Shown: in pieces, positions 4,305 through 52,004 of the stretch
Numbering within the stretch: position 1 is the first letter of the stretch
How the letters are laid out: the number at the start of each line of letters is the position of its first letter
NCBI RefSeq assembly: GCF_963675165.1
Contig: NC_087381.1
Coordinates: 5,023,378-5,087,377 of the forward strand
Direction of reading: 5' to 3'
From: Halichondria panicea
Lineage: Eukaryota > Porifera > Demospongiae > Suberitida > Halichondriidae
DNA length: 64,000 nucleotides
Program-made: the position numbers and the translations under genes
Notes under the pieces: generated by a model
Told to the model about the DNA's origin: nothing
Database searches by the model: none
The model's input: the letters and a program-made list of their open reading frames with translations, nothing else

Positions 4305-4660
4305 CTTATGCAGTGATCATGTCTGCACATGCAACCATTAGTCTCTGCACATGCAGTGATCATGTCTGCACATGCAACCATTAGTCTCTGCGTGTGCAGT
4401 GATCATGTCTGCACATGCAACCATTAGTCTCTGCACATGCAGTGATCATGTCTGCACATGCAACCATTAGTCTCTGCACATGCAGTGATCATGTCTGCAC
4501 ATGCAACCATTAGTCTCTGTGTGTGCAGTGATCATGTCTGCACATGCAACCATTAATCTCTGCACATGCAGTGATTATGTCTGCACATGCAACCATTAGT
4601 CTCTGCACATGCAGTGATCATGTCTGCACATGCAACCATTAATCTCTGCACATGCAGTAC
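4305..4660. repeat. Minisatellite in left end (about 43-44-bp unit)
   Basis: About eight tandem copies of a unit containing 'ATGTCTGCACATGCAACC', 'ATTAGTCTCTGC' and 'ACATGCAGTGATC'. Units differ by a few substitutions (CACATGC versus GTGTGC). The same array is found in reverse complement at 7985-8195. Confidence 0.93.
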
Positions 4661-5004
4661 AGTACAGGTGTACCTGAGTCCCATTGAGAAACATATACTT
4701 TGACCTGATGCAGCAGCTCTATTTAAAGCACGTGTATCAAAGATGTATTAAAAATTAATGATGGATATAATAGATGGTATGGACATGGATGAAGACGAAT
4801 CTGCCATTGAAGTACTCGGCTGGAACATATTTTGCATGTGCAGACATGATCATAGCCTCGACTCAAGTCCGCTTTACAGCGGCCTGGTATACCTTGTATG
4901 CGCATGCGCGAAATAATTCGTATATTTATCAGTATTACGCAAGTGATAAAATCTGACAAAGTACACAAAGAAAAAATACGTAAGACTGCGTGGTTGGTGG
5001 TAGA

Positions 5005-7450
5005 ATGTTCAAGACAATGGCAGCCACCAGAATATGCAGATTGTGCTGCAACATTGTTACTTCTACTCGCTGCTCAGCTCTGTTCAGCAAAGAGTCTGTT
5101 CAAAGATGCCTTCCAGACAGACTTGGCAAACTGCTAGAGCTGCCAGTTAGTGAGTGTGATGGGCTATCTTCATACATTTGTAGAGCTTGCACAAACAAAT
5201 TCCAGTCTCTGGAGTCTAAACTTAAAGCCTTTAAAAGTATGGCTAAGTGTGGTTTTGAGCAGGGTCGAAATAAGGCTTCCATCTGTAGTCCTATGGTATC
5301 AGGTAGGAAGAGAACTAAAGACACCAGTGGGCTTGAAGCATCACCTCACACAGTCCATGCTAGACCTCTAGCAAAACGTCTGACAGTAGGAGCACCTGGA
5401 AGAAGGCTTGCTTTCTCAACCAGGGAGGAACGTAGGTTGATTGCAACAAATCATATATGTAGATGACAGGAATCATCTCTTTTTCATAGCGCACACAGAC
5501 TGTCCTCGTCAGCCACCGCTGTTAGAGTTGACCAATCTCGAGCAGTTTTCTTCTGTTGACGGTATGTTAAACCACCTACAAACGAAATGAACGTAAATTA
5601 ATATATAGCCATTAACTTAAAGGTTCAGAAGGTGTTGCAAGAGATATTTCCAAGCCTGGTTCGACTGAAACAGTTATGGTGAGGATAACAGATCTGATAC
5701 TGTAAACACACCAAAATCACACTAATTAATTAAACAATATACAGATCACAGTGAGCTCACCCAGTACAGTGACTGCGGAAGTAGATGAAAGTCTCCAGAA
5801 ATTACACCAGGCACTGAATAGTGGCAACATTCAGTCTATTGCCAAGGCAGCATTTTCTTGCCCTTCACTGAAGGACCAATTGGTAGAGGGTGTGGTGAAA
5901 ATTCTTGACGACGAATGTTCCACTCTATGTCGTAACTCTGGGGAGTTTGTCTCTCTATTTCACCGGGTTCCAATTGACAATGTGGAAGCGTTATCGTGGA
6001 AACAGGCTGTGTCTGAACTACAGCGAAAGTCTCCGATTCTATTTAGGCTTATCCAGACGATCGTAGGACGTTCAGATCATAGGAACTTGCATAAACGCGG
6101 AGAGAGTCGTGTATGGCCACAGCAATTCTCTTGAAAGAGCGTAACACAAGAATGTGTGGTATTCAGTCGTTTCTGTCTCTCGTACTCTTCAACTGTAGAG
6201 TAAACAAAAAGGTTTGTACATGTACATGTACATGTATGATGTGTGTCCACTACGTATTTTCAGATACAGGTATAATTATTATATCACAGAGAGGGATTGG
6301 AAACGGAAGTTACCTTGCCACGTTAGGCCAGGGTTTAATTGAGGCTACAAAATGTATGTATGATTGTAACGTTAGTAAAATCTAGACTAGATAGTGCCTG
6401 CAGTATACTCCCAACTGTCACCTGAGGAACGTATGGATTGACACATGCAGTACACTGATAATTAAGTATTACCATTAGCTAGAAGCATACTCATAAAGAT
6501 CTCAGAGCATGACACTCTTTGTAGCTATTTTGAAAAACGTATTTTTTCCAAAGGATGCTCACCATTATAGAGGGCATGAGAATGCATGTTGTTTTAGGGG
6601 GGCTTTGAATGCATTAATTGCAGTGGTCTTAATTCCAGAAACATCGTTTCCCCAAGTGCTGCACAACCGTACACAGATTTAAAAATTAATGTAACGCGAT
6701 GCTACCTCCGTTTCCAATCCATCTCCTCTTATATAATTATGATTACATTGAATTACTCACAGGTATACTCCAGGCTGAATCATCTTAGTGTCACTATCAG
6801 TTACTGTGCCGTGTTGAAGTTGGTCACGAAAATCAGCAAGCTGTACCAACGTCCTATCGATGCCTGGATTGATGAGGGTGCATGTTTCAAGTTCGTGGGG
6901 GACAACGTTGCTAAAACAAAGGGCGTTAGAGACATTCGTAGTGACCATCATGGTGAGCTAGTGCAAATGTACAGTTTGTTGGCAAAGGACCATCTCCAGT
7001 CTCAACCTTTTCCCCCCTAACCTGGGTTCCCTAAAAATAACTCACTTCCTTCCTACAAAGGCCGACATTGAGGGCATCCAAGAAAATTTGGTCGTTCTAG
7101 TCGGTCAAATACTGTGCGAGTACATCAAGCCCCTCCAGCGGTACAAACGGTGTGTTGTCAGTCACATTAAGCACCCCCACAGCACAGAGATGGCCAAAAA
7201 ATCTGAGGTTGTAGTCCTTGATGTTCTACACAAGAATGAGGCAAAGGCCGCAGACATGATAGACATAATGATCGAGAAACATTCATACTTGAAAGATTCT
7301 ATTGAACTTACTGTTATGTCAGGTGGCGATCAGATGACTTGTGAAAGACAGCGATGTAGCAAAAACATATGCGAGATGCGGACACTCGCAGTGGACGATT
7401 GGAGCAGTTAGAGCCTTGTATAGAGGACTGGCACTGCCTTATGAGTATTC
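5005..7450 (+). pseudogene. ZAD-like zinc finger plus DUF6589-like transposon gene, frame-broken
   Basis: The first exon (ATG 5005) encodes a ZAD-like finger: 'CRLCC' followed about 50 residues later by 'CRACTNKFQSLE'. Further exons are supported by GT-AG boundaries: 5490-5561, 5633-5678, 5745-6211 and from 6763. The 5745 exon carries a helical region ending 'LLKERNTRM', and 6211|6763 joins in frame. The 3' exon has 'GDNVAKTKGVRDIRSDHHGE', 'HSTEMAKKSEVV', 'SGGDQMTCERQRCSK' and 'EPCIEDWH', the order I associate with DUF6589 proteins of transposable elements. Frameshifts lie near 6110, in the C6 run at 7012-7017, and near 7368. By inference it is the transposase or its partner. The DUF6589 name comes from motif memory and needs a profile search. 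Confidence 0.68.
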
Positions 7451-10311: not shown

Positions 10312-10980
10312 ATGGCTCAAGGAACGACGGACGACAAGTGGTCGATTGATAAGCTGGAAGGCTCGAATTGGTCTACGTGGAAATTCCAAATGAAACACAT
10401 GTTGCTGGCTTAAAGGACTTTGGGGTCACGTGGATGGCTCAGAAACTATCGGAGAAGAGGCGGCTATACTCGTACTCCAGCCCAGACAGCTGAATTTGAA
10501 AGAAGAGCACAAAGGGCATTCTCGTCCATTGTCATGACAATTGCTACATCCCGGCTCTATTTGATTACTTCATGTGATGGAGCAAAAGATGCCTGGGATA
10601 CTCTGCGTGATCACTTTGAGCGTGATACACTGGCCAATAAGTTACTCGTAAAGAAACAATATTTTCCAATGGAAATAGGAGAGAACACGTCAGTTGAAGG
10701 TCATTTAAAGCAGATGAAGGAACTGACAGATAGACTGGCCTCGATTGGAGCTCCTGTCGATGAAGAAGACCAGGTGGTGACGCTGTTGGGAAGCTTACCT
10801 CAGAGTTATTCGTCACTGGTGACAGCCTTGGAAGCTCGAGAGAATGTGTCTCTAAGCTATGTACAGCAGAGCCTTGTTCATGAAGAGAGCAAACTAAATG
10901 GAGAGCGCGGATCAAACCAAGATACGTCAGCTCTACTGGGAGGACATAAACGAAAGTTTCAGCGTGGCAGAATAACTCTG
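10312..10980 (+). pseudogene. copia gag, frame-broken
   Basis: The ATG at 10312 opens 'MAQGTTDDKWSIDKLEGSNW', the usual copia gag start (the 'KLxGxNWxxW' motif). A frameshift at about 10411 puts a TAA in frame; a compensating shift follows near 10470. The remainder is copia-gag (UBN2-like): 'TSCDGAKDAWDTLRDHFER', 'LLGSLPQSY' and 'EESKL'. Near 10977 the frame shifts again just before the CCHC knuckle 'CGEEGHIRRDC', whose first Cys is missing. Gag would package the RNA in virus-like particles. Confidence 0.85.
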
Positions 10981-12298
10981 TGGTGAAGAGGGACACATCC
11001 GAAGAGACTGTCCAAACCGACCGAGACATAAAGCAAAATCAGCTGAGTCAGAATCAGACACGGAGGAAACTGGTGCATTTACAACATCCAAGAGTACGTC
11101 CCAGACATCTGTAACCAGTAAGAGATGGCTGATAGACTCAGGGGCATCAAGTCACATGACCAACGCAAAGGAGCTGCTCACTGACTATGAGGAATTCTCG
11201 AAACCTGAGAGTGTGAGCCTCGGAGATGGTCGAACTGTGGACGCTATCGGTGTTGGAAAAGTTGACCTGTCCATGCAATTTAAAGTGAGTGATCCTAAAA
11301 GGTGTGTAATGTATCAAGTACTCTATGTCCCCAAACTTGCCTGCAACTTGTTTTCAGTAAGAGCAGCCGGAAATTTTCTTAAGTTTGGAAAGTCGAAATG
11401 CGGGATCAGAAACACAAGGGGACGTTTGCTTGGTCTCGTAGGGAAACTATATCAACTGGATTGCAAGACAACAACCCCTGAGTACGCGTCAGTTGCAGCC
11501 CGCAATCAGCAGGAAGAGAGTGCCGATCTCTGGCACCAAAGGCTAGGTCATGTGAACCAGCAGCAGATATACGATTTCGCCTCTCAAGACATTGTGAAGG
11601 GAGTAAGAGTCTCGAAGTCCCCAGATATCTCTTTCTGTGAGAGTTGCGTCCAAGGAAAGATGCAGAGGAAGCCATTTAAACCAATGGGAGAAATTCGCTC
11701 AACAAGAAAGTTGGAACGCATACACAGTGATGTGTGTGGTCCCATGCCAACGGAGTCATTTGGAGGAAAAAAGTACTTTGTCACGTTCATTGATGACTTC
11801 TCAAGGTGTTGCAAAGTTTACTTCATGCGACACAAATCTGAAGTGCTAGATAAGTTCAAGGAATACGAAGCACTCACAACAAATGAATGTGGTCTAAATA
11901 TCGGCACACTACGATCGGACAACAGAGGTGAATATGTTTCCAAGGAATTTGAAGCCTACTTGAAGAGCCAAGGGATTCGACACGAATTAACAACTCCCTA
12001 CTCACCACAACTGGCAGAGAGAATGAACCGCACACTCATGGAAGCTGCTCTATGTATGATTGCTCAAGCAAAATTATCGGATCGCTTTTGGGCAGAGGCA
12101 GTTGCTACAGCTGCGTACCTCAGAGATAGGATGCCTAGTCGAGCCTTCAAGATCAAAATCACACCATATGAGAGGTGGTACGCACAGAAACCGAAATTGA
12201 GCCACATACGAGTTTTTGGTTGTACAGCGTACGCACACATACCAGATTCGCAAAGAAACAAACTTGCAAAGAAGGCTGAAAAACGACGGTTTGTATAG
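10979..12298 (+). pseudogene. copia pol, part 1: protease and integrase
   Basis: One frame is open from 10979 to the stop at 12298. It holds the aspartic-protease site 'RWLIDSGASSHMT', the integrase zinc region 'LWHQRLGH...CESC', and an integrase core with Asp in 'HSDVCGP', Asp in 'TLRSDNRGEY' and Glu in 'AERMNRTLME'. Three residues seem to be missing just before that Glu. The frame ends at a 2-base shift at about 12294-12298, from which the RT frame continues without loss. Confidence 0.9.
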
Positions 12299-14138
12299 GA
12301 TACTGCTCTCAATCCAACGGATACCGACTAATGGACGAAACAACATCTAAAGTCGTCATTCGAAGAGATGTCGTTTTCAACGAGACTGTTTTTCAAGAGA
12401 CTGATTCACTAACTGATTTACAGACCCTAACTTCAGTACGAACGGAAACAGTACCCTGTACTAGTGAAGCTGAAACTGAAGCTGAATCTGAAGCTGAATC
12501 TGAAGCTGAACCCGAAGCTGAAGAAACTCCTGAACCCGAAGCTGAAGAAACTCATCGATACCCTAGTCGACAACGGGCTCAACCAGTGAGGTATGGTCAG
12601 GATGAGTACATTAATGCTGCAATCCTTGAAAACAACCCAGCCTCAGTAGAAGAAGCATTATCAGGTGATGACTCTGAGGGCTGGAAAGCAGCTGCTGATT
12701 CCGAATATCAATCCCTGATTGAAAACAAGACTGTAGAACTACCAAGTGGTCGAAAAACTATTGGAAGCAAGTGGGTCTTTAAGGCCAAACGAGGAAAGGA
12801 CGGTGAAGTGGAGCGACTCAAAGCTCACCTAGTAGCCAAAGGTTACACACAAAAATTTGGTGTAGATTATGATGAAACATTTGCACCAGTAGTGCGTTTC
12901 ACATCAATTCGAGTGTTACTAGCACTGGCTGTACAGAAGGACATGCTTGTCCACCAAATGGATGTTGTAACAGCCTTCTTAAACGGCACACTAGAAGAAG
13001 AGATATACATGGAGCAACCGTCCCACTATGTCGAGAAAGGCAAAGAAAAACTAGTCTGCAAGTTAAACAAGTCACTCTATGGACTGAAACAATCTCCACG
13101 ATGTTGGAACGCTGTGTTTACGGAATACATGGAGCAAGCAGGATTTGTTCAAAGCAGTGCTGATCCTTGTGTGTTTGTCCAAACTGAAGAGGGTGACCTA
13201 ACAATCGTTGCTGTGTATGTGGACGATTTAATCATCTTAACCAAGACACCTGAAAAGATGAAGGAGGTGAAGCAAAGTTTGGAGGGACGTTTTAAGATGA
13301 AGGATTTAGGAAAGCTCCACTACTATTTCCATAGACCACGATGAAGATGGGAAGTGTATACAAATGCATCAGAAGCAGTACATACAGGCAATGCTGGAGA
13401 AATTTGGACTGACTCAAGCTAATGCAGCTTTGACACCAGCTGATGTAAACGTAATTCTCAAAAGGGACGACGAAACCAGCAAACCAGTTGAGTATCAGTC
13501 ACTTGTAGGAAGTCTGTACACGTCCAGATACAGCTCAAGCAGTGGGAGCAGTGTCCAAGTTTAACTCGAACCCGAGTGAAGCACACCTGACGGCCGCCAA
13601 GAGAATATTGAGGTATCTAAAGGGAACAGCCGATCTAACACTGAAGTATGAGAAATCGAAGGCCGATGTACTAATGGGCTATTCCGATGCCGATTGGGCT
13701 GGAGACCAAGACAATCGTCATTCTACAAGTGGAAACCTGTTCTTGATAGCCGGAGGGGCAGTTTCATGGATGAGCAAGAAACAAACGATGGTAGCTCTAT
13801 CCACCGCGGAATCTGAGTATGTCGCTCTTAGTGTTGCCACTCAAGAGGCCGTGTGGATGAGAAGATTGCTCACAGACTTAGGAGTGTGCCAAAAGGTGCC
13901 GACTGTATTGATGGAAGACAATCAAGCAGCAATCGCTATTAGCAAGAATCCTGTGTCACATGCTAGGACGAAGCATATTGACATCAAATTTCACTATGTA
14001 CGTGAAGCTGTAAAGGAAGGGATCATTTCATTGACGTATTGTCCGACAGAAAAAATGGTAGCTGACTTGCTCACTAAGCCATTGAACCGAATTCGTTTCA
14101 AGTCACTTCGCGACGAAATGGGCATGTCTCAGGAATAA
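12299..14138 (+). pseudogene. copia pol, part 2: reverse transcriptase and RNase H
   Basis: The segment starts in frame 1 (to 13344) with an E/A-rich repeat, about residues 45-75 ('EAESEAESEAEPEAE'), then RT blocks 'GSKWVFKAKR', 'VHQMDVVTAFLNG', 'SLYGLKQSPR' and the catalytic 'YVDD'. A small deletion near 13327 moves it to frame 2 (13328-13564), and another near 13513 to frame 3 (13515-14138). The last part is RNase H, with 'SDADWAGD', 'STAESEYVA', 'EDNQAAI' and 'TKHIDIKFHYVRE'. There are no in-frame nonsense codons inside any segment; all the damage is indels. Confidence 0.9.
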
Positions 14139-28892: not shown

Positions 28893-31800
28893 CTATATAC
28901 ACGGCATCACATAAGATGTAGAAAATTAATACAAGCCAAACAACCTATACTCTCGTACGTATATATACATTACACAAAGAAGCCAGTCTCTGAAGCACTT
29001 ATATAAAACCAAAATGGTCAAATAATACACTAAAATAGATGTTGTATATACAGCTATGGACAACGCACCATTTTCTCATAACCACTAATACTAAACACAG
29101 AGGGATCAATATCATCATGAGCCACACCAGCTAGGTCCTGTATGTGCACGAGGAGCACAGTGATGAAAGCACTTTACTAAATTCCACTCACAAGAGGGTT
29201 TCTCCCAGTGAAAGCGCTGTACTTGTTGAGAGTCTCCCTCAGACAGCTGTAAGTTCCCTCAGTCTCACTCCTCCACGTCTCAAGGACCTGAACCACCTCC
29301 TGTCTGGGACTGACTGACTGAATGTTGACAATGGAAGGGCTCAGGATTCTTCTGTACAACATGCAAGCAACTTGAATCAGATCTTCAATGTTGGCAACTT
29401 GATTGGCAAAATGAAAAATGAAGGCTTTGGAGATTTTTTCATCTTTCTTGGGATTCTTGTCACTGTGGATACACTGTATGGTGGTTTGATCGAGGCCAGC
29501 GTACGGCTCAAACTGTAAGAGGTGCTTGAAGGTAAAGCCAACTTGTTGTGTAGATTTTATTGTGCTTCTATGACAGATGACAGCTGCTGCATGTTGACCA
29601 GTGGGAGGTCAGAGGGCTGGATTTTTCAGAGGAGGATGCTTGACAACTTCATCTGGATCAATCACTGATTCAATCACATTCACACGGCCAAAACTTTCAA
29701 CAGTCTCACGGATTGTGCTCACAATTCTGGAGCGATGCATCAGACCTTCAGGCCGAACTGTGTCGACAGTGTGCATTTTGAGAAAAAGAGATTGGCCATT
29801 TTCAGCAAGCTCTAGATGTGCGATGATTCCATCATCGTTGCACCAGCAGATTCCACTCTTCCACACAGAGCAGAATCTCTGTAGGGAAGGAATATTGTGC
29901 AGTATTCTCGTGGCAGGGGCAAGGCGGAACGTGAACACTATCCTCAGAATGAGAACCTGAAGGCAGCAAGGATCAATAAACTCTGTGTAATGAGAGGTTT
30001 GGAGTATCCAACCAAAGTAGTACTTGATGCTTTGAGATTTTTTTCAAACTTGCTCTGGAGTTTCAATTCGAATCAACCCCGGAAAGAAGAGGTATCGAGT
30101 GTCAGAAGCATCTCTGTCAGTGGAAGAAGCAATCTCTTTCGAAATATAATCCAAGACTTGCTCGTCTATGATTTCGAAACACAGCTCAAAATGAGACATG
30201 TAGGCAATCAGCATCTCTATGTCGAAGACATCGAATGCTTTCTTAAATTTCGACAAAGGTACCACTCCAGTGCTTGAAGCTAGCTTGCAGTGCTGGCGGA
30301 AACTTTCAGGAGCAAACATGGTCCCAGTGACTCTGGACAGAAGCGTTGCTTGGTCAATCACTAAGAAAGACTTCTCTGGAGAGCTGTCGTTGCGGAGAAA
30401 CAAGAGGAGACCTCTTTTATGCAGCTGGTCACAGATCTCTACAAGGTGATGGACGGTGCTGGGTATGAAAGAAAGACTATCTTTGGCACGTTGTGACAGA
30501 TCCTCATTAAGATTGCTCTTAATTCTTTCGTAGACACTTCCTAACGGCAAAGCAAGTTCGTCTTTGAAGCTCTCGTCCAGGCTGATGGTTTCTGGAGAGC
30601 GGAGAATAGCGGAACTTTTCTGAATTTGTTTTCTTGCTTTTGTCATATCAACAGAATCAGCAAAACGGCAATCCATTGGGATGAACCCTGTGAACTCACT
30701 TTGGGAATTGCTTGATAATGGGGACAAAGATTCTCTCGTTGGCTTGTGGATCTTCTCCCATTTCCTTTACCTTGTCGGCATGGCTACCAACTACAATCAC
30801 GTGTGCTTTGTCTTTCAGATTAGAGCACTGGTTTTGGACGAGGGTCAACCAATGAATTGTGGAGTCAATAATTGCCTGCTCACTTTCTAAAAGCTTGGCA
30901 CATAGAATAATGATGGGTGGCGAGGTTTGAACAGCATTCTCCAGAATGGCACTGTGGCTCGTGTAAAACTCTTTCTGGCCAGCGAAATCAAAGTAGATGA
31001 TTCTTCCAAAGTCTTTAGTGTATACATCGTACGGTATGATCCCCACTGTCCTTGCATCGACACCATCTACAGGTTCTGCCTTCTGCACTTTAGCCAGAAA
31101 ACCTTTTGAGCTTAGAATGGACTTCAACAAAGTACTCTTTCCCACGCCACCGTTACCAGTGAGGAACACCGACAGAGGAAGGTGTGGGAGTTGCTCAAAA
31201 GAAAGTGTTCCTATGTGCTTTCTGTATTCCTTGTAGACATTGGCCGCCTTGGCTCCATGTCTCAAGAGGAGCTTTATGATATCTGGGTTGTTGGCCAAAT
31301 CGAGAGGTGTTTTGCCTTCTTCGTCGGTCATATTCGGATCACTGTGGCATTCTGCCAGTAGAAACTCTGCTCCTGTTTTCTGAGCATCCTTTACTGCTAA
31401 TAAGAGGATACCCGATCCGTCTCCAATTGAACGCTAGGTCGCCTCCTCGACTAGAATACAGATATAAAAACTTACAGGAGTGTAAGTAATAGGACTTACG
31501 TTTACTTGGTTTAATTCGTGAATTTGCAACATAATGCTTCGTTCTCTAGGTTTGCTTATATTATATTTGGAACCATTTCAACCATTTCAGAAGAGTGCGT
31601 AGTAGCAAAACTTGTCCATGCATGGAGTGCATGTTGCTACTCTATACTTATAGTACTTAGCTGTGTAATAGAACGCTAGCTATTGCATGGTAGCTGCAAG
31701 AGCTAATGAAAAGAAGCTGCAAGGCTCTACTCAGGATGCAGCAGCCATAGACTTTGTACTTCTGGCACATAAGGAGATGGAGCATCTTACTATGTATAGT

Positions 31801-34526: not shown

Positions 34527-34989
34527 GCAATAATTATGCACATAATCTTCAGTGCGGCCTGGAATCGAGGCTAATCCCTTTAATTATTGCTGACTGTGCA
34601 CAATTGTTGCTGAATCAGCATTATTTTTTGCAAAATATTCGTCATGCCTAGCTGGGTGGGGCTCGATCTGCAGCTAACGCTGCTTTGCCTGCAAGTAGTG
34701 CTCACTAGTTAGAGTTGTGCCAAGAAGTATTGTTTAGTGCTGGTAGTTTCAGTACTTAATAAGACACAATTGATCAATTCGGCAGCTCAATTCTCATGAC
34801 CACCACTCCGTCCGCAAGCGAGTTATTCTTTCCAAATTTTTGGGAGCTGTTACTTTCTTACCCATCTGTAGGTCCATGTAGTTAGTTTTGTGCAAAATCG
34901 TCTTGTGCTTCGAGCAATAGCCGCCGATTATAGGTATCTGGCTAAGATAGGTTACTTACTCTATATACGTATTTTTATCTAGGGGGTAC

Positions 34990-36809
34990 CAGGGGCGATC
35001 CTAGGATTCAGTCAATGGAGGTGCTCATTGCGCGCAAAGCGCGCCGCAAAATTTTGACCACGCCCACTTCCGGGGGGGGGGGGGGTCACGCCCCTTTTGT
35101 CGGCAACGCCCACTGTTTTCTAGATGGTGCACAGTACTGACAGTATATACAACCAGTCTGCCCTAAGACCCCAAATGTTGTAAGACAGGAAGTGCTACAA
35201 GTTGCCTCATGAATATATTAATGAGAACAGTTTTTCTTTGTTTCTGATAAAAGTAAAGGTTTTTAGAGCTATCTAAGTTGAAATATGTAATAAGAAGACA
35301 GTTTAACATACGATAAACACTTTAAAATATGAATTTGGGTCAAACTGGCATTAAGTTGTGAAAACGATTGCGGAAAGTTCGAGAGTTTGAGCAAGCTGTT
35401 CACCATCAACGTAGCAAGCTAAAAATTGGTTGATCAAATCAAAAGGATCTAAATTACAACATATTCAAGGTAAATGCCATACAAATGAATGGTGTTTGCA
35501 AAGCAGTTACACAAACTTTGAAATAAATACACAACTTGGCAATAGCATAGAACACTTCATGAATGACTTCAAGCCTTCTAGCTTGCTGCTAAGCATGCAC
35601 ATGCATCAGATGCACTAGTTGATCCTTTAGGCAGTCTCTGGTTCCATTCACATCTGGAGATATGCAGCCATGAGTTCCACCAACCACAGAGATTATTCAG
35701 AATGAGCTAACTTTGAGAGTTTGCGCAAGCTGTTCACACTATCTCAATCCAGTCCAAACTTGCTGAGTCAATACATTCCATATTGAACTAATTTATCTCC
35801 TAGTAACAAGTTCTAGTTCAGTAAATGGTCTGTGTTATGAGCTTTGGAAATTCAGAAAAAAATCACCCTTCACTACAATCTGACAGAGTTGTAGGGTGCA
35901 TCATTATGAATCTCATTATATAATTATGAATTTCATTAAAACAATGTTTTTGTGATGTCATCCTTATGAAACCATTAAAATACTTGTGGTATGTATTTCC
36001 TGTCTTGTCTTGCAAATACTGAAAACTTGGGGGTCTTAGGGCAGACTGAACAGTGCAGTGCAGTACAGTGCCATCAGCAAATCAAGAATGTTTATGACCA
36101 GAAGCTCAATTCGCCTGGGATGGCAAACTCTAGCCAACTCTTCTTAAGGTATGTCAAATGTCAATGCAATCATGTCTAGTCTACTCTGTGTAAATGTAGA
36201 AGTGTAAGTGATGATAAACGTTTGTTCCTTTGCTTGATCTGACGACAGTCTTGATTCTTTTCTTTTCAGGCCACTAAAAGATTGATCAGCTTACCAGGAG
36301 GTGACAGGCAGCGTACAAAGTATGACCACCAGTACCTTGATGTTGAGGAAAAGAGACTTTGTAGTTTACATTGCAAACATTGATTATTATTAATTTATTG
36401 TACATACATGTCATGTAGGCTTAATCATATAATTATACTATACATTCATGTACCTCATGTACCTGGATCCAAGAACCTTGTTGTGCTACAGCAAACCACT
36501 TCCTGCTGCCTAGCCTTATTTATTGAGCCCCTCCCCACTCTTAGCTTTACTAGTTCCCATGGATATCCCAGTAACGATCGAAGTTTTTTAGGCCAGCTTA
36601 GCTAGCTAGCTAGATCTAACTGGTATAAAGTTATTGTAACTATCACTATTAAGCTGTAGATAGCTGCAGTAAGTGTAGCTTCCTTCTAGCCAGCCAGTGA
36701 TGGTTGAACTATCTACTTGAGCTTCTCTGAGTCTGTATAGGGTGCTGGAGCACCAGAGTCTGGATGGGGGTGCTGGAGCACCCTAAGCACCACCCTGTGT
36801 ACGCCCCTG
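34990..36809. mobile_element. 1.8-kb element with CAGGGGCG ends, inserted in the left end of the HECT transposon
   Basis: Ends CAGGGGCG (34990) and CGCCCCTG (36809) with a 5-bp direct repeat GGTAC (34985-34989, 36810-36814). Taking it out restores 'CTAGGGGGTACTCTTTTTG', exactly the sequence at the intact right end of the host element. The ends look hAT-like, but hAT elements usually make 8-bp duplications. No transposase ORF is recognised. A G14 tract lies at about 35078. Confidence 0.82.
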
Positions 36810-37083
36810 GGTACTCTTTTTGTCAACTGTATAGAAAATAAACATTCAGGGGTACACTTTTTGTCAACTGGGTATGGAAAATATATATTCAGGGGTCTTT
36901 TTGTCAACTGGTATAAAAACTGAATATATACACTTATCAGTTTAGGTCCAAAAAATAATTGTTTAGCTACTAAACTAACTACTCTTCTATATAATTTTAA
37001 ATGTACATGAACTGGAAAGAGTACCCTCAAATAAAAAGAGTACCCCCAAATAAATCCTAAGGTTAAAGTACACGTACTTTAAC
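36810..37083. repeat. Left inverted end of the HECT transposon (inner part)
   Basis: Reverse complement of about 42913-43222. Contains three variants of 'CTTTTTGTCAACTG', the block 'TTTAGGTCCAAAAAATAATT' and the inner palindrome 'GGTTAAAGTACACGTACTTT'. Confidence 0.92.
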
Positions 37084-37298
37084 CTCGCTTGTATTTCTAT
37101 TTAAAGCGCAGGCTTAGAGTTTGAGTGTATCCCTACTTACTGTACCAGTACAGCTCGCCAGTATAGTACAGTGCAGTACAGCATGTCTTCATGGTTATTA
37201 GAGTCCCTTAGAACACTTATCGACGATCTGAATACTGGGAACTCTGGTGTAACTACGCTGGAAGCTGCTGATAGTTAAGTTACAAGAGGAGGATAGAG

Positions 37299-38774
37299 TT
37301 GATGTATAGAGAATTGTTGGCTACAGAGATTGTTGATGGATCTTTGAGTCAAACAGAAACGGAAGCCCTGGGCTATGTAGCACAAGCTTATAAGGAAATG
37401 AGCAATTTGGTGGATATGCTGGTGGCACGACCAGTTGCGAGCAGATTTTGTACACCTACCTTAGCTTCTGGAGAAGTGGGAAGGCCTTCATTTCAGATTC
37501 CCTGTGATCAGCTCAGATACCTTATTGATTACCGTTTCTCTGTACCTCAAATTTCCCAGCTATTAGGTGTGTCAATTCGTACCGTTCGACGTAGAATGTC
37601 TGAGAACAATATGTCCATTCGATCAACTTATTCACAGCTCAGTGATAATCAACTGGAAAAGGTCATAGCTGACATCCAGCGCCTATTTCCTAACTGGAAA
37701 TCGACAAATGTATGGCCATCTCATTTCTCGTGGTATTCGGGTTCAATATCACCGGGTACAAGAGGCACAGTCTCGAGTTGACCCAGAAGGTAGTGTGTTA
37801 AGGAGGCTCCAGATTATCAGGAGGCGATGTTACTCCGTACCTGGTCCTCAACACCTATGGCGTATTGACGGACACCACAAGCTGATCCGGTAAGTTAAAA
37901 GTAGAGGTGTAAAGGTGTAATTACTCGTCAGTTTGGCCTGACATGACATTTCAATCTGCCCTATATAAAAATAGTATTTACATTTTGGTCTCAGGTGGAA
38001 GCTAGTAACCCATGGTGGGATAGATGGTTACAGTCGTTTGATAGTGTTCTTAAAGTGTTCCAGTAACAACAGAGCCGACACTGTTATGCAAGCTTTTTCC
38101 GAAGCTGTCCGCTATTATGGCAATCCAAGTCGTGTGAGGGCTGACCGAGGTGAGGAAAATGTTGTTGTTAGTGACTATATGATTGCCCTACGTGGATCTG
38201 GAAGAGGCAGCTTTATTGGTGGCCAAAGCGTGCATAATCAACGCATTGAAAGGCTTTGGCATGATGTGTTCAGCTCATGTATTATTGTGTACTACTCTCT
38301 TTTTTGTTACAAGGAAGATGTTGGTATATTAAACATAGATGATCCACTACACCTGTTTTCACTGCACTATGTGTATGTGCCTCGCATCAATGAAAGCCTA
38401 AAACAGTTCGAAAGTGCATGGAATAATCACCCATTGTCATCAGTGCGTAATCTGAGCCCAAATCAACTTTGGTTGACTGGCACGCATCCAGATTTCTGTG
38501 ATGATGAGGTAAGCTTACATTACAGTGATGTAAATGATTTACACTCCGTCACGTTGTTTAGGTATCATCACTCGATCAGTTTGGGTTGGATTGGAATGGG
38601 CCACTCACTTCTGACAATGATGGTGTTGTATGCGTGGATCCACCAGACGTACCTCTTACCAGTGACGATTATGAACAGCTGTGTATACAAATTGATCCTG
38701 TTCAGCTAAGTTCTGAGTATGGGTTAGATGTGTATGCAAGAACAATTCAATATGTGTACAGCCACATTAGTTAG
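37299..38774 (+). pseudogene. Integrase-like (rve/DDE) transposase, one frameshift
   Basis: Three exons: 37299-37889, 37995-38508 and 38562-38774, joined by GTAAGT..TCAG and GTAAGC..TTTAG with phases that keep the frame. The N-terminus has a helix-turn-helix: 'FSVPQISQLLGVSIRTVRRR'. The core has Asp in 'LWRIDGHHKLIR', Asp in 'VRADRGEEN' and Glu in 'HNQRIERLWHD', the DDE triad of retroviral-integrase-fold enzymes. A one- or two-base change near 37694 shifts the frame inside exon 1; the sequence resumes at 'MYGHLISRG'. An earlier ATG (37182) opens a 31-codon frame that soon hits stops, so I use 37299. The enzyme would cut and join the element's ends. Confidence 0.82.
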
Positions 38775-39549
38775 AGATAGATATTAATTTGTTGTGTGAC
38801 TTTGTGTGTATGAAACTGACAATAATTTATTATGATTATTACACTTATAACCGAGTGGGGGTGAGCTTCCATAACCATTAATTGACATCCTCTTTAATTT
38901 TATGATAATTGCACATAATTATATTCAGTTAACGGCCGGTTAATGAGAAATGAGTGTGATGTGAACACTAGCAGTTGAGCAAAGTAGTGAGTAACGGGTT
39001 GGTTAAATGAGTCAAAAAATGAAAAGTCACTGTTCAGTTCAAAGGATGCCAAGGCCATCGTTTCCTTTTAGGGAGAGTACAAAACACTGCTTGAACTGTT
39101 CATAATTGTCATGCTTGAAGGGAATCCTTATACGAAGGTCACATGTGCTGGCTGTTGCCAGCTGTCCTTCAATGAAAGTCGGCACAGGTCGTGTGGGGAA
39201 TCCAAGAGGAGGCTCTTTTGATGCTCCTGTAAAGAAAATGAGAATGTCTTCGACAGTTACCACCTCTCCATTTTCTGTAATAACGTCTCGATCTGCAATT
39301 AAGGGAAAAAAGATTGCCGCCGTAACCTACAACCTTTGAACAATATCCACTTAATTAAATGTGTATTGTTGAATGTATAAGTCACTTACAAAAATAAATT
39401 AATTATAATTACCTTCACATTCCTCAATGAAGTCTAGTAGAAACATGTTCGAGGATTAGTTTCAGAAGAAAAGTTGGCCTTCAGAAGTGACTACCTTTGT
39501 TGAGAACAGTAGCCTCAGCAACAAACAGAGGTTTCATCAAAAAAGAGTA

Positions 39550-39857
39550 CAGTAGAACCTCGATTATCCGGACACCTTGGTTCCAGAAGCAGGCCGGATA
39601 AGTGAATATGCCGGATAATCGAATAGATAAACCACGCCTTGATCCACCCACTTTATTGATGAACAGCAGTGCCACATGTTGTCTGCGCATGCGCAAAAGA
39701 AAAGCAGGCATGTGTCCATGGTAACAGCTGCAACGCGCATGCGCATTTGAGGGACACGCCCATTTTCTGAATTATGTAATCTGATTAAAAAGAAAACTGC
39801 CAAGCCGGATAATCAAGGTTCCGGATAATCGAGGGCCGGATAATCGAGGTTCTACTG
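39550..39857. mobile_element. pogo/Tigger-like MITE, 308 bp, in a HECT exon
   Basis: Inverted ends CAGTAGAACCTCGATTATCC with TA on both sides (39548-39549, 39858-39859). It is the reverse-oriented near twin of 25702-26000. Joining the flanks at one TA would keep the HECT reading frame open, so the target was an intact coding exon. Confidence 0.95.
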
Positions 39858-41899
39858 TACTTTATTATTGTTTCCAGAACACTCTGGTTTTGTAAACCCT
39901 CACACAGCTGATCCATTTCTGCCTTCGTCTTAATGAGAGTGTGATAGTCCCGTAAGGTTTTCTTCAAGTGGTCTTTATCGTTAACAGTCAGCAAACATAA
40001 TGCCTTACGGAATCCAGTTTCACACACAAGGGAATCGTTAGCCTTGTCTGGATTGTCGTCATCAAATAGAAATGTAAGGTCTTCGTCTTTGTCTGCTTTC
40101 TCAATCTAAAGATAAAAGTGCTTGTACTTACTTACTATAAATATACAACCTTACCTGCTCTAGCAAAACCCGAACTTCTGAATCTGCAACTTTCTTGTCA
40201 TTAACCACTTGTCCAATATACTGACCGGTAGCAATATAATTGTAGACGGAAGGGTGCAGCACTGGTAAGCCCGAACCACCTTGCACAATACACATGGCAA
40301 TCAACATTCCAATAGCTTTAAAGTCACCCCGCTATAAAAAAAGACAACATAAACATAAAATTGTATGACTAACATAGTGGACACATGACACCCGCCTCGA
40401 TTTAACTATAATCATAGGCACAGTGCTACGAGGACTAACCTGCAGAGCTGGTACATTCTTGTCTAGGAAACATTCACCGCTATCATTGGACACACAGTAA
40501 GAAGAAGAAACACCACTGGCAAACAGACGCCAGAATTCTCTAGAAGGACCACCGGTATCAACACCCTCTTCACCAACAAAGTGAACCTGTGAAAGTATTA
40601 TAGAAATGTTAATGTTCAACACCAACCCAAGTATCTACACTATATACTTGTACTGCAACAACATACCCGAAGTAGGTTAGTAGAATTGAATCGCTTCTTT
40701 TCAGCTGCTCTCACACCATCAACAACCACATGACTCCTCCTTACATCTAAGCTACAACGAGGGGTCATATCCCACTCCTCATCAGTACTCGGAAGCTTGA
40801 TACCATTTTTTTGCTGCAACATCACCACTACATCCTGCAGTGTGTCAACTTCTTCCTCCACGCTACACACAATAATTATATTGTACATAATATGCCAAAA
40901 AATCACGTCTAACACATACCCTTCTACAGCATCTTGCAGGCTTCTTGAAATTGCTTCTGACACATCACTTTCAAATGTTAAATCAACACTTGATGTAGCA
41001 GTTGAGATAGCCTAAAACACACATCAGTCACAGTAAGCCAGTCACATCGTATATGTAACAAGACAATAACAAATTACCCCTTGGCATGGCGTTATTGGAG
41101 AAAATGGGGGAGCAGTTGGAGAAGTAGGGGACCGTGTGCAGCCACCATCTTCTAGGAATTCCTCCATCTCAGAAGGAATGTAATCCCCACTTCGTAAATA
41201 CTCCGAACACTCACCTGCTTCAGGTGGGGAGCACTTGTTATCCCTATATACACAACAGTTGTTGGTACAGTTTTAACGCACAATCTAATAAATTACCTGA
41301 CACAAGCTTTGATGTGGCTTCTCATCAGGTGCATTGGTACTGACTTCTCGCAGTGCATACACTTTTCAACAGGAGCTATTCCCTACAATAAACAATGCCC
41401 AGTAAACAATAACACAAAAGTCACACAACTAAATAGCATACCAAGTCATCTTTGTCCACTAGTGGATCCAATGACAGGTCTTTCTGAATCGGCCTAACAA
41501 ACACTTTAGCCTGGCCAACAATACGACGCAGATACTCTGCAGTGTATCCGTCAGATGGTGGGCTAATGACAAATAGCTCTCGATTGTTGTGTTGCTGGGT
41601 GCGTAGTAACTCGTAGCCACCAGCGTTGCGTAACTTTGGAAATGCACTGGTGATTTCATCATGAAATTCGAAAGGCTCTCCAAAGTCAAGGAATGGTATC
41701 TTTTTCGGACCTAGACCTGCCCTAATTAGATCAATTTTCTCCATTGACGAAGGTGGAGTCAACTGGCCACAACTAGCTAAACAGATGAACTCGTGCTCCC
41801 AAAGGCTAAGTTTCACTTTTTTCGACTTTTTGGGCCCTTTTCCTTTTCTTTGCATCCAGGATGGCCGTTGCACTTGCGCAGTGTTACGACCAAGCATTT

Positions 41900-42150
41900 G
41901 CGAGCGAGGTTGCATCATCTGCTGATGCTGGAGAGGTTGCACACCACGATTAGCAGGTTGCATCATCTGCTGGAGAGGTTGCAGACCACTCACTTGATTA
42001 GCAGGTTGCATCATCTGCTGGAGAGGTTGAACACCACTAGCAGGTTGCATCATCTGCTGGAGAGGTTGAACACCACTCGGTGCTTGATTAGCAGGTTGCA
42101 TCATCAGCTGGAGAGGTTGCAGGCCACTCCTTTCAGGTTGCATCATCTGC
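41900..42150 (-). repeat. Coding minisatellite, Q/M-rich
   Basis: Tandem units of about 42-54 bp with 'GGTTGCATCATCTGCTGGAG' on the plus strand, encoding 'LQQMMQPA' repeats at the N-terminus of the HECT protein. Confidence 0.9.
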
Positions 42151-42912
42151 TGACGCTGGACACCCCTTCCTGCATATCAAAAACATAGCATGTGAATTCC
42201 CAAAGTGATTATATTAAGCTCTCACTTATGAGAGTTTTATTCTGCTGCATACTCTATAAGGTTAGGGGTACTTCCAAAGCTCTTACGACATTAATTTTTA
42301 GACCCCCCCCCCCTTAGTCTCGCGGACCCAGACCCTGAATAAGGGTCTGGCCAATTTCACCGTACAGAGTTGTGTTGACCGCGCCACAAATATTGTGGCG
42401 CTCTAAGTGGCTGATAAGTGTTTGTAGTAAGTTGTGAAACCGCACAGCTGCACCGCTAGCTAAAGTAGATTTGGCAAATCTAATTATGTGGTTTCACACA
42501 TCCGTCTCCACCCACTAACCAATTATCAATGTAAACAGCCACTTAGGCTCATGTGTAATTTGCCAGACGATAATATATCGGCTGGTCCACGAGACTACCC
42601 CCCCCTCTTAACATCACAAGTTTTGACACACTAGTTATTGAATGGTCACAGACCAATAGTTAAATCCCTCTAGCTCTAACTCTTCGTAATATAAATGATG
42701 ATACTATAAACGTAATCACACCTGCACTTCTTTCAGGAAGTCTTGTAAGAGCCTGCCTCAAGAAGTTTCTCGTAGCTTTCACTCCATCTGTATTATATGG
42801 ATAACCGTTTGGGTTTCCAGTAGCCATGTCACACTGCTAACAGAAGACTAACAGATAACAGTATCTTTGGTCTACGACTGAGCCACGTGTTGAAGCTTAT
42901 TGCGCATGTGCA

Positions 42913-43245
42913 CTAAAGGTTAAAGTACATGTACTTTAACCTTAGGATTTATTTGGGGGTACTCTTTTTATTTGGGGGTACTCTTTTTATTTGAGGGTAC
43001 TCTTTCCAGTTCAGGTATATACATTTAAAATTATATAGAAGACAGTAGTTAGTTTTGTAGCTAAACAATTATTTTTTGGACCTAAACTGATAAGTGTATA
43101 TATTCAGTTTTTATACCAGTTGACAAAAAGACCCCTGAATATATATTTTCCATACCCCAGTTGACAAAAAGTGTACCCCTGAATGTTTATTTTCTATATA
43201 TACCAGTTGACAAAAAGAGTACCCCCTAGATACAAATACGTATAT
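42913..43245. repeat. Right inverted end of the HECT transposon
   Basis: Uninterrupted right end. Starts with 'AAGGTTAAAGTACATGTACT' and closes with 'AAAGAGTACCCCCTAGATAC'. It gives the reference against which the insertion in the left end can be read. Confidence 0.93.
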
Positions 43246-43250
43246 ACTCT

Positions 43251-43735
43251 AATTTTGGCACTAATATTGCGCCATAAGGTAGCCTCTCCTTTTTCTTTTT
43301 TCTGTTCTTTATCACAATAAGACATGATAATGAGAGACATAATATAATGTAGCTGAACAGAAATTAATATTAAAAATTATATATATATCTTGTTCTTGTC
43401 TTCTTTGTCTTTGAATTGTGACCTTTTGAAGCATGATACTAGCTTATTAAATTGTGCATGAGAACAGTATGATACAGGCTGAATACAGGCCGTTTGTACG
43501 GGCTGTATGTGAACGGCCTGTTTAGTAGTGTCTACCCAACGGTCCCGTATCAGGATGTGGTAAACGTCCTGTAACGGACATGTAACGGACCTGACACGCC
43601 CCGTGGATTTTTGGCTGTGTAAAATACTGTTTTAATTAACGTTCAATGAGATAAAATACGGTAAATAATAAATTAATTGTCCACCCACGCGCCAACAGTA
43701 AATACCAGGCCCACTATTCAAGGGGCTGGAGTCGA
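43251..43735. other. Spacer, no gene seen
   Basis: AT-rich sequence without a recognisable ORF. A short block around 43480-43600 is rich in 'CGGCCTGT', 'GTAACGGAC' and similar motifs. Confidence 0.45.
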
Positions 43736-48475: not shown

Positions 48476-51405
48476 CTTTATTTCATTCAAGTACTGAACA
48501 ATCTTGGTAGCAATTTCTGCCTTCCTCAGATCCAATAAGATCCTAATCAGTGCTCGGAAGGTTGCTTCGCTGGGTTCGTGACCCCTCCAAATTGACAAAC
48601 AGTTGATTACTGCCACTTGATTGCTTCTACTTAAATAAGTCTCTCGCCTCACGTCAGCTTGTTCATTGTCAGTCAACTTCAGTGGGTTGAGGTACAGCTC
48701 CACATCATCAAAGTGCATAGCTACTGGAGCAAAGTCGTCTTGTTTAATCTCTCGATCCAATTGCTCGTCAGTGACTCTATGCTTGACCATCAACTCATGG
48801 AGGCTGGTAGTCCCTGGATCCTATACACATAACATGTTGAGAAAATAATAATGTCTCTGAACTCACAGTAAAAGTTTCCGACTTATATACTGCGTACACA
48901 AAAAAGCAAGTCTGAAGCACTAGCTCACATCAAGGTGGGGAAGAATTACCCTAATTTTTGTACACAATATACAACGCACATATTGCTCATCACGACTTGC
49001 ACTGCTTCTAAATACAGAGAGATCAATATCATCATGAGCCACACCAGCTAGGTCCTGTATGTGCATACAAAGAATTGGTGAAAGTAATTATACATAAGCT
49101 AGTTGAATTCCACTCACCAGAGGGTTTCTCCCAGTGAAGACGCTGTACTTGTTGAGAGTGTCCCTCAGACAGCTGTAAGTTCCCTCAGTCTCACTCCTCC
49201 ACCTCTCAAGGGCCTGGACCACCTCCTGTCTGGGACTAACCGACTGAATGTTGACAACTAAAGCTTGAAATTGGCTTAGGATTCTTCTGTACATGCGACT
49301 GTTTCGAGCTACTTGATCAGGAGTTTCATTGTCTGAATTGGCAACTAGTTCGGCAAAATGGGAAATAAAAGCTCTGGAGATTTTCTCATTTTTTTTAACA
49401 TTCTTGTTACTGTGGATACACTGTATGGTGGCTTGATCCAGGCCAGCATACGGCTCAAACTGAAAGAGGTGCTCGAAGGTGAGGCCAACTTGTTGTGTCG
49501 ACTTGATAGTGCTTTTGTTGGAGGAGACAGCTGCTGCAATATCTTTGATGTCGACTAATGGGAGGTCAGAGGAATTTTTCAGAGGATGCTTGACAACTTC
49601 ATTTGGATCAATTATCGATTCAATCACATTCACATTTCGCCCAAAACTTTCAACAGTTTCACGGATTGTGCTCACAATTCTGGAGCGATGAATCAGACCT
49701 TCAGGTCGAACTGTGTCAGAGCGCATTTTGATAACAAGAGATCGACCATTTTCAGCAAGCTCGAGGTGTGCGGTGATCCCATCATCGTTGCACCAGCAAA
49801 TTCCACTCTTCCACACAGAGCAGAATCTCTGCAGGGAAGGAATATTGAGCAATATTTTTCTAGCAGGGGCAAGTCGGAACGTGAACACTATCCTCAGAAT
49901 GAGGACTTGAAGGCAACGAGGATCATAAAACTCTGTGTCTTGAGATGTTTCAAATATCCAACCAAAGTGGTACTTGATACTTTGAGCGTGTTTCCAAACT
50001 TGATCTGGAGTCTCGATTCGAATGAGCCCTGGAAAGAAGAGGTATCGAGTGTCAGACTCAGAAACAGAAGCATCTCTGTCAGTGGAAGAAGCAATCTCTT
50101 TCGAAATGAAATCCAAGACTTTCTTGTCTATGATTTCAAAACACAGCTCTAAATGGGACATGAAGGCAATCAACATCTCTATGTCGAAGCCATTAAATGC
50201 TTTGCTAAATTTCGACAAAGGCACCACACCAGTGCTTGAAGCTAGCTTGCAGTGTTGGCGGAAACTTTCAGGAGCAAACACGGTCCCAGTGACTGTGGAA
50301 AGAAGTGTTGCTTGGTCAATCACTAAGAAAGACTTCTCTGGAGAGCTGTCATTACGGAGAAACAAGAGGAGACCTCTTTTATGCAGTTGGTCACAAATCT
50401 CTACAAGGTGAGAGATGGTGCTGGGTATAAAAGAAAGAATATCTTGGGTGCGTTTTGACAGATCCTCGTTAAGGTCGCTCTTAATTTTTTCGTGTACTTT
50501 TCCCAACAACAAAGCGAGGTCGTCTTTGAAGCTTTCGACAAGGTAAATATAAAAGGTATGAGCATTCAGGCTGATAGTTTCTGGAGAGCGGAGAATAGCG
50601 GAGCTTTTCTGGATCTGTCTTTTCGCTTTTTTCATATCAACTGAATCAGCAAAGCGGCAATCCATTGGAATGAACTCTGTGAACTCAAACTTAGGGAATT
50701 GCTTGATAATGGGGGCAAAAATGCTCTCTTTGGCTCGTGGATCTTCTCCCATTTCCTTCACCTGGTCGGCATGGCTACCAACTACTATCACGTGTGCTTT
50801 GTCTTTCAGATTGGTGCACTGATTTTGGACGAGGGTCAACCAATGAATCATGGAATCAATAATTGCCTGCTCACTTTCTACAAGCTTGGCACATAGAATA
50901 ATGATGGGTGGTGAGGTTTGAACAGCATTCTCAAGAATGGCACAGTGGCTCGTGTAAAACTCTTTCTGACCAGCAAAATCAAAATAAATGATTCTCCCAA
51001 ACTCTTTTGTGTATACTTCGTACGGTATAATCCCCACTGTCCTTGTATCGACGCCATCTACAGGTCTTGCCTTCTGTAGTAGTTTAGACCAAAACCCTTT
51101 TGGGGTCAGAATGGACTTCAACAGAGTGCTCTTCCCCACGCCACCGTCACCAGTGAGGAGCACAAACAAAGGAAGGTGTGGGGGTCGCTCGGAGGAGAGC
51201 TTTCCAATGAGCTTGCTGTGTTCCTTGTAGACATTGGCGACCTTGGCTCCATGTTTCAAGAGGAGCTTTATGATATTAGGGTCGTTGGACAAATCGAGAG
51301 GTGTCTTGCCTTCTTTGTCAATCACATTCGGATCACTGTGGCATTCTGCCAGTAGAAACTCCACTCTTGAAGCAGGCCCGTACTTCACTGCTAGTAAGAG
51401 GAAAC
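48476..51405 (-). CDS. Ank-ROC-COR-Death protein, intact paralogue (copy B)
   Basis: The large exon 51405-49118 is open for 762 codons between an acceptor (TTCTAG|G) and donor GTGAGT. It is followed by exons 49054-48980 and 48820-48476 (Death; donor GTACGT). It carries an ankyrin repeat 'DKEGKTPLDLSNDPNIIKLL', Roc P-loop 'GDGGVGKSTLL', G3 'DFAGQKEFYTS', G4-like 'VGSHADQVKE', and a COR domain ('ICDQLHKRGLLLFL', 'YLFFPGLI'). Then come a middle region and the Death exon 'ATFRALIRILLDLRKAEIATK'. ROCO proteins use Roc-COR as a GTP-dependent dimer switch; Ank and Death parts suggest a signalling adaptor in the cytosol. Ankyrin exons continue upstream. C-terminal exons beyond 48476 are missing from my reading. 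Confidence 0.85.
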
Positions 51406-52004
51406 CTAGAATAGTACAGAAGTTAATTACTCAGGCTAACCCAACTTCGATTCATACTGTAATACCGTATAGCTGGTTATTTCGAGGTTTTTGAGGAACA
51501 CGAAAATTTAGTGCCTTGAAAATTGGTTTACATCCGGTATTGAAACCTCTCTACTGTGGGGTGTGGTCATATGTCATATGAACCGCTATCCTCGAAATGT
51601 ATATAGTGCCTCCAAAATAACCCGCTATATGGTAGATACATCATTATGACACTATAGAACCAATTTTGTAAGGTATTAATTTGATCAACATGACCTCCAT
51701 TCATATACATACATGCATAACAAAACGATGTGAAGAGTATGGAAAAAAACGTAAACAAGATATGGGTTGGCGGTACTTGGTGCATGAAAGCAGATTGAGT
51801 TGGCAATGAGCTCCAAAGCAAAATTAATATGAAGGAGTCAATTGTGCACACACTGGAACTAAACAGGAGTCAATTGCCTCTAGCCTCGTTTACACCATGC
51901 AGGCCTTTAATCTGGGTTGGAATCCGCGGTTTAAACCTAATCCGGATTCCAAAACACAATCAACAATCGATGCAAATCAAGATTACAATTTTACCAAAGA
52001 ATAC
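51406..52004. other. Intron of copy B
   Basis: No coding part recognised. A fragment at 51474-51535 resembles repeats at 54410-54500 and 60720-60800 ('GTAATTTTCGTGGG'-type blocks). Confidence 0.4.

Follow-up and report, generated by a model that had tools for sequence, protein, structure and literature searches.

A predicted HECT ubiquitin ligase gene accompanies the transposase gene in an IS3EU-type DNA transposon of the sponge Halichondria panicea

In a 64,000-nucleotide stretch of the Halichondria panicea genome (contig NC_087381.1, positions 5,023,378 to 5,087,377; here called the window, a part of contig C5 in the 131-Mb genome), we analyzed a single DNA transposon copy, at 34963-43276, that holds two convergent spliced genes, one encoding an integrase-fold DDE transposase and the other a predicted HECT ubiquitin ligase. 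The window copy is dead, with a frameshifted transposase and a damaged HECT gene. We consider the anatomy of the element, the recurrence of its two genes across the genome, the conservation of the HECT active-site cysteine and the rejection of neutral evolution to be established with very little doubt. The sequence comparisons further suggest that the HECT gene is a standing accessory gene of the IS3EU lineage that serves the element, a reading that we regard as likely.

The long inverted ends described in a first-pass annotation of this DNA were borne out, as positions 36810-37085 pair with 42917-43225 in blocks of 124, 70, 54 and 43 nt that are 96-100% complementary. The family terminus TATGGCGCAATATTAGTGCCAAAATTAGAG gave 51 genome matches at three mismatches or fewer (25 forward and 26 reverse, 38 of them exact), and the reversed-pattern control gave none. 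A subset of these matches was read out to the element ends, and 16 pairs of ends were readable from 18 loci. The terminus continues into TATATACG, and therefore the right end of the window copy is at 43276 and the pentamer ACTCT is repeat sequence. The complete termini of the family are TATGGCGC..GCGCCATA, with true ends TATGG..CCATA, and the ends first proposed were about 30 bp too far inward. Target site duplications (TSDs) in the 16 two-ended copies were an exact 6 bp in nine, an exact 7 bp in two and neither in five, and swapping flanks between copies produced no duplication in 240 combinations. The 5-bp TSD ACTCT proposed initially was therefore rejected, since it lies inside the terminal repeat and the family TSD is 6 bp.

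In the window copy, the right terminal inverted repeat (TIR; 42917-43276, minus strand) is complete to ..GCGCCATA, as judged from the inverted repeats and the family terminus. The left side stops at 34963, without the outermost 30 bp or so of the repeat, and because this tip is lost the copy has no TSD. Comparison of the inverted-repeat blocks with the family ends identified 34963-34989 (plus strand) as the outer piece of the left TIR, and the blocks themselves identified 36810-37085 (plus strand) as the remainder. The two pieces are split by a nested, non-autonomous-looking insert at 34990-36809 with the ends CAGGGGCG..CGCCCCTG, for which GGTAC is duplicated at 34985-34989 and 36810-36814. 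Two other long copies, termed the C1 copy and the C5 copy (the latter separate and distinct from the window copy), are unbroken at that site.

Judged by the termini and TSD of its family and by its transposase core against published descriptions, the window element is an IS3EU-type cut-and-paste DNA transposon. IS3EU/GingerRoot elements are described as having TA..TA termini, usually 6-bp TSDs and an integrase-related DDE transposase (PMC10045372), all of which are found here. The end motif of fungal IS3EU elements, TAYGG..CCRTA with a 6-bp TSD (PMC12730594), likewise resembles TATGG..CCATA, and the fungal elements share with ours a second enzyme gene oriented opposite to the transposase. Ginger1 and Ginger2, with TSDs of 4 bp and 4-5 bp, respectively (PMC10045372), were ruled out by the 6-bp TSD, and IS481EU, with TSDs of approximately 4, 15 or 25 bp and TGT..ACA ends reported for its H. 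meleagridis families (PMC10045372), fits neither in TSD length nor in termini. The difference lies in the second gene. Here it is a HECT ligase gene, whereas the accessory genes of the fungal elements are alpha-kinase and TET/JBP genes (PMC12730594), and the words "HECT" and "ubiquitin" were not found in the main texts of PMC10045372 and PMC12730594.

The HECT gene lies between the element ends in three long copies, namely, the window, C1 and C5 copies, the last two being 2 of the 16 two-ended copies; the remaining 14, of 1.0-3.0 kb, had no HECT C-lobe match. The C5 copy (13,050 bp including a nested element, with an exact 6-bp TSD) has both genes between its ends, and the C1 copy (6,426 bp, with a 7-bp TSD) has the HECT gene. 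In the C1 copy (L039, C1:9154500-9161300), approximately 1.8 kb at 4428-6239 that does not match the window element replaces most of the transposase, and the HECT gene is retained. The flanks of the three copies showed no relatedness at a BLAST E value of 1e-3. A second subfamily, at C11:4410966-4418175, also has transposase and HECT genes between inverted ends, with three mismatches in the left end and a TSD that was not read. These observations uphold the earlier proposal that the HECT gene is part of the element.

Recurrence of the two genes together had been set as a check on that proposal, and it was found across the genome. Searches with PF24764 gave at least 156 matches among the 150 of 234 candidates scored. 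Of these, we took as 92 transposase loci the matches down to an E value of 2.6e-27, minus two second fragments of copies already counted, and left out 64; HECT positions were the 244 genome matches listed. At 65 of the 92 loci, the 6 kb downstream contained a convergent HECT match on the other strand, with a median gap of 706 bp (a smaller set of HECT positions had given 40 of 92, and further HECT scans raised the count). The 92 include many near-identical copies, and the 65 paired loci therefore do not represent 65 independent events. A HECT match within 6 kb upstream, used as a control, occurred at 5 of 92 loci, and in 200 runs with the HECT matches placed at random, 0.46 loci were paired on average and never more than 3 of 92. 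Chance pairing was therefore rejected.

At a further six loci, HECT was found on the same strand only, two of these matches coming from neighbouring elements and four lying 2.94-2.99 kb downstream of the transposase (C4:2654326, C4:3499349, C15:5971502 and C7:4194514). The sequences fall into at least seven subfamilies, between which C-lobes are 19-56% identical. In one subfamily of seven loci, six are 98.7-99.9% identical to the seventh over approximately 3.3 kb, with open transposase frames; because element ends were not read there, these loci may be duplications of larger stretches. At C9:2873900-2881900 (L088), we observed an inverted pair of approximately 2-kb arms, 99.8% identical. Both arms carry a transposase, and each has a HECT C-lobe on its inward side. 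Similar inverted transposase pairs, 7-27 kb apart, occur on C1, C8, C13 and C16, and such pairs could be composite or palindromic elements.

The transposase gene of the window copy comprises three exons on the plus strand. Exon 1 (37183-37889) contains the first Asp and an N-terminal part in which weak helix-turn-helix matches were the only ones, where IS3EU elements are expected to lack an HHCC zinc motif before the core; it is frameshifted in the window and open in the C5 copy, which is free of these frameshifts. Exon 2 (37995-38508) encodes the integrase core, with the second Asp and the Glu in RADRGEEN and NQRIERLW, and matches PF24764 at an E value of 2.9e-78, which confirms the integrase-fold DDE transposase recognized initially. 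The last exon (38562-38774) was delimited by its reading frame up to the stop codon. A PDB sequence search with the transposase profile gave no match at an E value of 0.01.

The predicted HECT protein consists of a ubiquitin-like domain, a C2HC finger and a HECT domain with a catalytic cysteine. Its gene lies on the minus strand, with exon 1 (42722-42827; ATG at 42827) placed by splice reading, exon 2 (41442-42169) encoding Q/M repeats and then the ubiquitin-like (beta-grasp) domain, and exon 3 (41297-41382) encoding the zinc finger (CMHC..HIKAC). Exons 4 (41078-41243), 5 (40920-41011), 6 (40667-40862), 7 (40440-40586, with the N-lobe motif GEEGVDTGGPSREF), 8 (40155-40331) and 9 (39495-40105, interrupted) follow, then a remnant of exon 10 (approximately 39413-39480) and the last exon (39039-39292), which encodes the C-lobe with the catalytic cysteine (ATASTCDL). 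The first-pass annotation held every exon boundary to be clean. The GT/AG splice signals that were read in the window copy are indeed in place, but exon 9 is broken by a miniature inverted-repeat transposable element (MITE)-like insert of 306 bp (39551-39856), and 152 bp that the C1 and the C5 copy both retain have been lost at 39492, on the intron side of the exon 10 remnant. Intron 1 holds another insert (42315-42597); neither insert is present in the C1 or C5 copies.

The description of a full HECT ligase stood in part. The gene with its catalytic cysteine is there, but the two HECT pieces of the window copy scored 19.5 and 13.4 bits, below the Pfam cutoff of 23.9. Partly joined HECT exons from three subfamilies exceeded this cutoff, with 34.6 bits (the joined exons of a sister copy of the window element), 50.8 bits and 35.2 bits over positions 24-168, 12-305 and 233-305 of 306, respectively. 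The S-T-C of the C-lobe is invariant in six of six subfamilies, with LTC in a seventh, more distant one, and in a profile comparison the catalytic cysteine aligned with the TC of AREL1. The exon 3 finger, called UBZ-like in the first-pass annotation, has a C2HC pattern, and the joined window exons reached zf_C2HC_14 at an E value of 0.19 only; 1 of 39 relatives matched the TRAFD1/XAF1 finger (5.4e-7). The predicted protein thus shares with AREL1, SMURF2 and RSP5 a HECT domain with a catalytic cysteine, as seen in profiles, and differs from them in its N-terminal ubiquitin-like domain, its C2HC finger and its location in a transposon. HECT genes of this kind in fish and corals carry annotations as "G2E3-like."

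We compared subfamilies with a pairwise codon model, and omega (the nonsynonymous-to-synonymous rate ratio) equal to 1 was rejected in seven of seven fits; for HECT these span three pairs of subfamilies, and for the transposase two pairs. Comparing HECT between the C1 and C6 copies (60% amino acid identity) gave twice the log-likelihood difference (2dlnL) of 306 over 454 codons, and two of the seven fits are subsets of this one. The transposase core of the window and C6 copies gave a 2dlnL of 157 over 165 codons. The C-lobes of two other subfamilies gave a 2dlnL of 22.3 over 80 codons with an omega of 0.21, which like the other omega values is not usable as an estimate, because saturation of silent sites affected most fits, and two ran away. 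Neutral evolution of HECT between subfamilies is thereby rejected, but the earlier argument that clean exons prove selection until recently fails, as each of the three long copies has a damaged HECT gene. Transposase and C-lobe distances were weakly correlated, with a Mantel r of 0.50, and 199 of 5,040 permutations were as high; C-lobes were less alike than transposase cores in 21 of 21 subfamily pairs. The comparison suggests co-inheritance of the two genes, and HECT swaps between subfamilies may have occurred.

Protein searches gave at least 3,894 relatives of the transposase among 8,000 scored candidates; HECT exon 2 had 45 relatives, and a single C-lobe had 5. Scans of viral contigs found no relatives of the element. 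A scan of prokaryote contigs found the transposase on three contigs of 3.4-4.2 kb (L089, L090 and L091) of a Cycloclasticus metagenome-assembled genome (MAG) from a Poecilosclerida sponge; the HECT C-lobe was not found in them, and they are probably host DNA in the bin. Among the papers listed by literature searches, judged by their titles and the openings of their abstracts, none dealt with HECT in a DNA transposon, and no paper came up for IS3EU with HECT or for a HECT domain with an integrase core domain; Repbase entries may already show such elements.

Selection has maintained HECT in several subfamilies, and the element therefore probably draws on the host ubiquitin system. In the mechanism that we propose, the integrase-fold DDE transposase would cut and join the element, yielding the 6-bp duplications, and the HECT protein would be enzymatically active as an E3 ligase and would promote the spread of the element. 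Its targets would mainly be host silencing or DNA repair factors rather than its own transposase. We hold this host-directed action to be slightly short of an even prospect. It is favored by the other host-modifying enzymes, alpha-kinase and TET, carried by the nearest fungal relatives, where TET reportedly lets transposons evade methylation (PMC12730594), and by the C-lobes being less alike than the transposase cores in every pair. Helitrons and Helentrons with VTD or OTU deubiquitinases (PMC9741609) are a precedent for a transposon-borne enzyme of the ubiquitin system; unlike our element, they are rolling-circle transposons, their enzymes remove ubiquitin rather than attach it, and the domain lies inside the Helitron's own frame. 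This precedent leaves the HECT target unsettled, since its authors weigh both the evasion of a host limit and the sparing of proteins needed for transposition (PMC9741609).

Several observations weigh against a standing HECT gene that serves the element. Besides the damage in the window copy, the C1 copy has lost one base in HECT exon 4, and the C5 copy has broken exons 3 and 7 plus a nested insert; outside the window subfamily, HECT was read as single exons, and a complete open HECT gene was not assembled. Twenty-one of the 92 transposase loci have no HECT match. Saturation of synonymous divergence leaves a rejection of omega equal to 1 without omega estimates, this rejection is weaker per codon for HECT (306 over 454 codons) than for the transposase (157 over 165), and the distances of the two genes agree weakly. 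The two genes together are known here from one genome, the three sponge MAG contigs showing no C-lobe match.

The same anatomy would arise if HECT ubiquitinated its own transposase or aided disassembly of the strand-transfer complex, thereby limiting copy number or helping repair. Pairing of the genes in at least seven subfamilies, their weakly correlated distances (r of 0.50) and their compact, mostly convergent layout are consistent with such self-regulation, but the greater divergence of the C-lobes fits changing host targets at least equally well, and we consider self-regulation rather unlikely. Capture of host genes is common among transposons, and with the damage in three long copies and the 21 loci lacking HECT it could point to a host gene carried passively, without a role for the element; the 65 paired loci, the conserved active site, the rejection of omega equal to 1 and the retention of HECT at seven near-identical loci make this very improbable. 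That ordinary neighbouring genes, or insertion beside a host HECT gene, account for the arrangement, the shared ends being accidental, is suggested by nothing beyond the broken state and missing left tip of the window copy and is virtually discounted by HECT between the ends of the C1 copy, both genes between the ends of the C5 copy and of C11:4410966-4418175, and the unrelated flanks of the three long copies.

Elsewhere in the window, consecutive open frames at 10414-14135 appear by eye to be a Copia-type retrotransposon (gag-like, integrase and reverse transcriptase), and two paralogous large frames at 30047-31433 and 49091-51430 (minus strand) appear by eye to be ankyrin/GTPase (Roco-like) genes.

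Returning to the HECT gene as an accessory gene of IS3EU elements, we speculate that in an animal branch of IS3EU the second gene may ancestrally be HECT with its ubiquitin-like domain, filling the role that alpha-kinase and TET have in the fungal relatives. The ligase would reprogram ubiquitination in the host and thereby let transposition evade silencing or repair, and some expansions of host HECT genes may then consist of these elements or of their domesticated descendants. We put this forward tentatively, as a possibility that is the less probable side of the question. Removal of ubiquitin or of DNA methyl marks by transposons has already been published. HECT gene models that adjoin integrase genes may belong to transposons, which is a warning for annotation. 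A transposon with its own E3 ligase as a regular second gene would show that DNA transposons may attach ubiquitin as well, and the HECT protein would offer a testable handle on the host factors that limit transposition.
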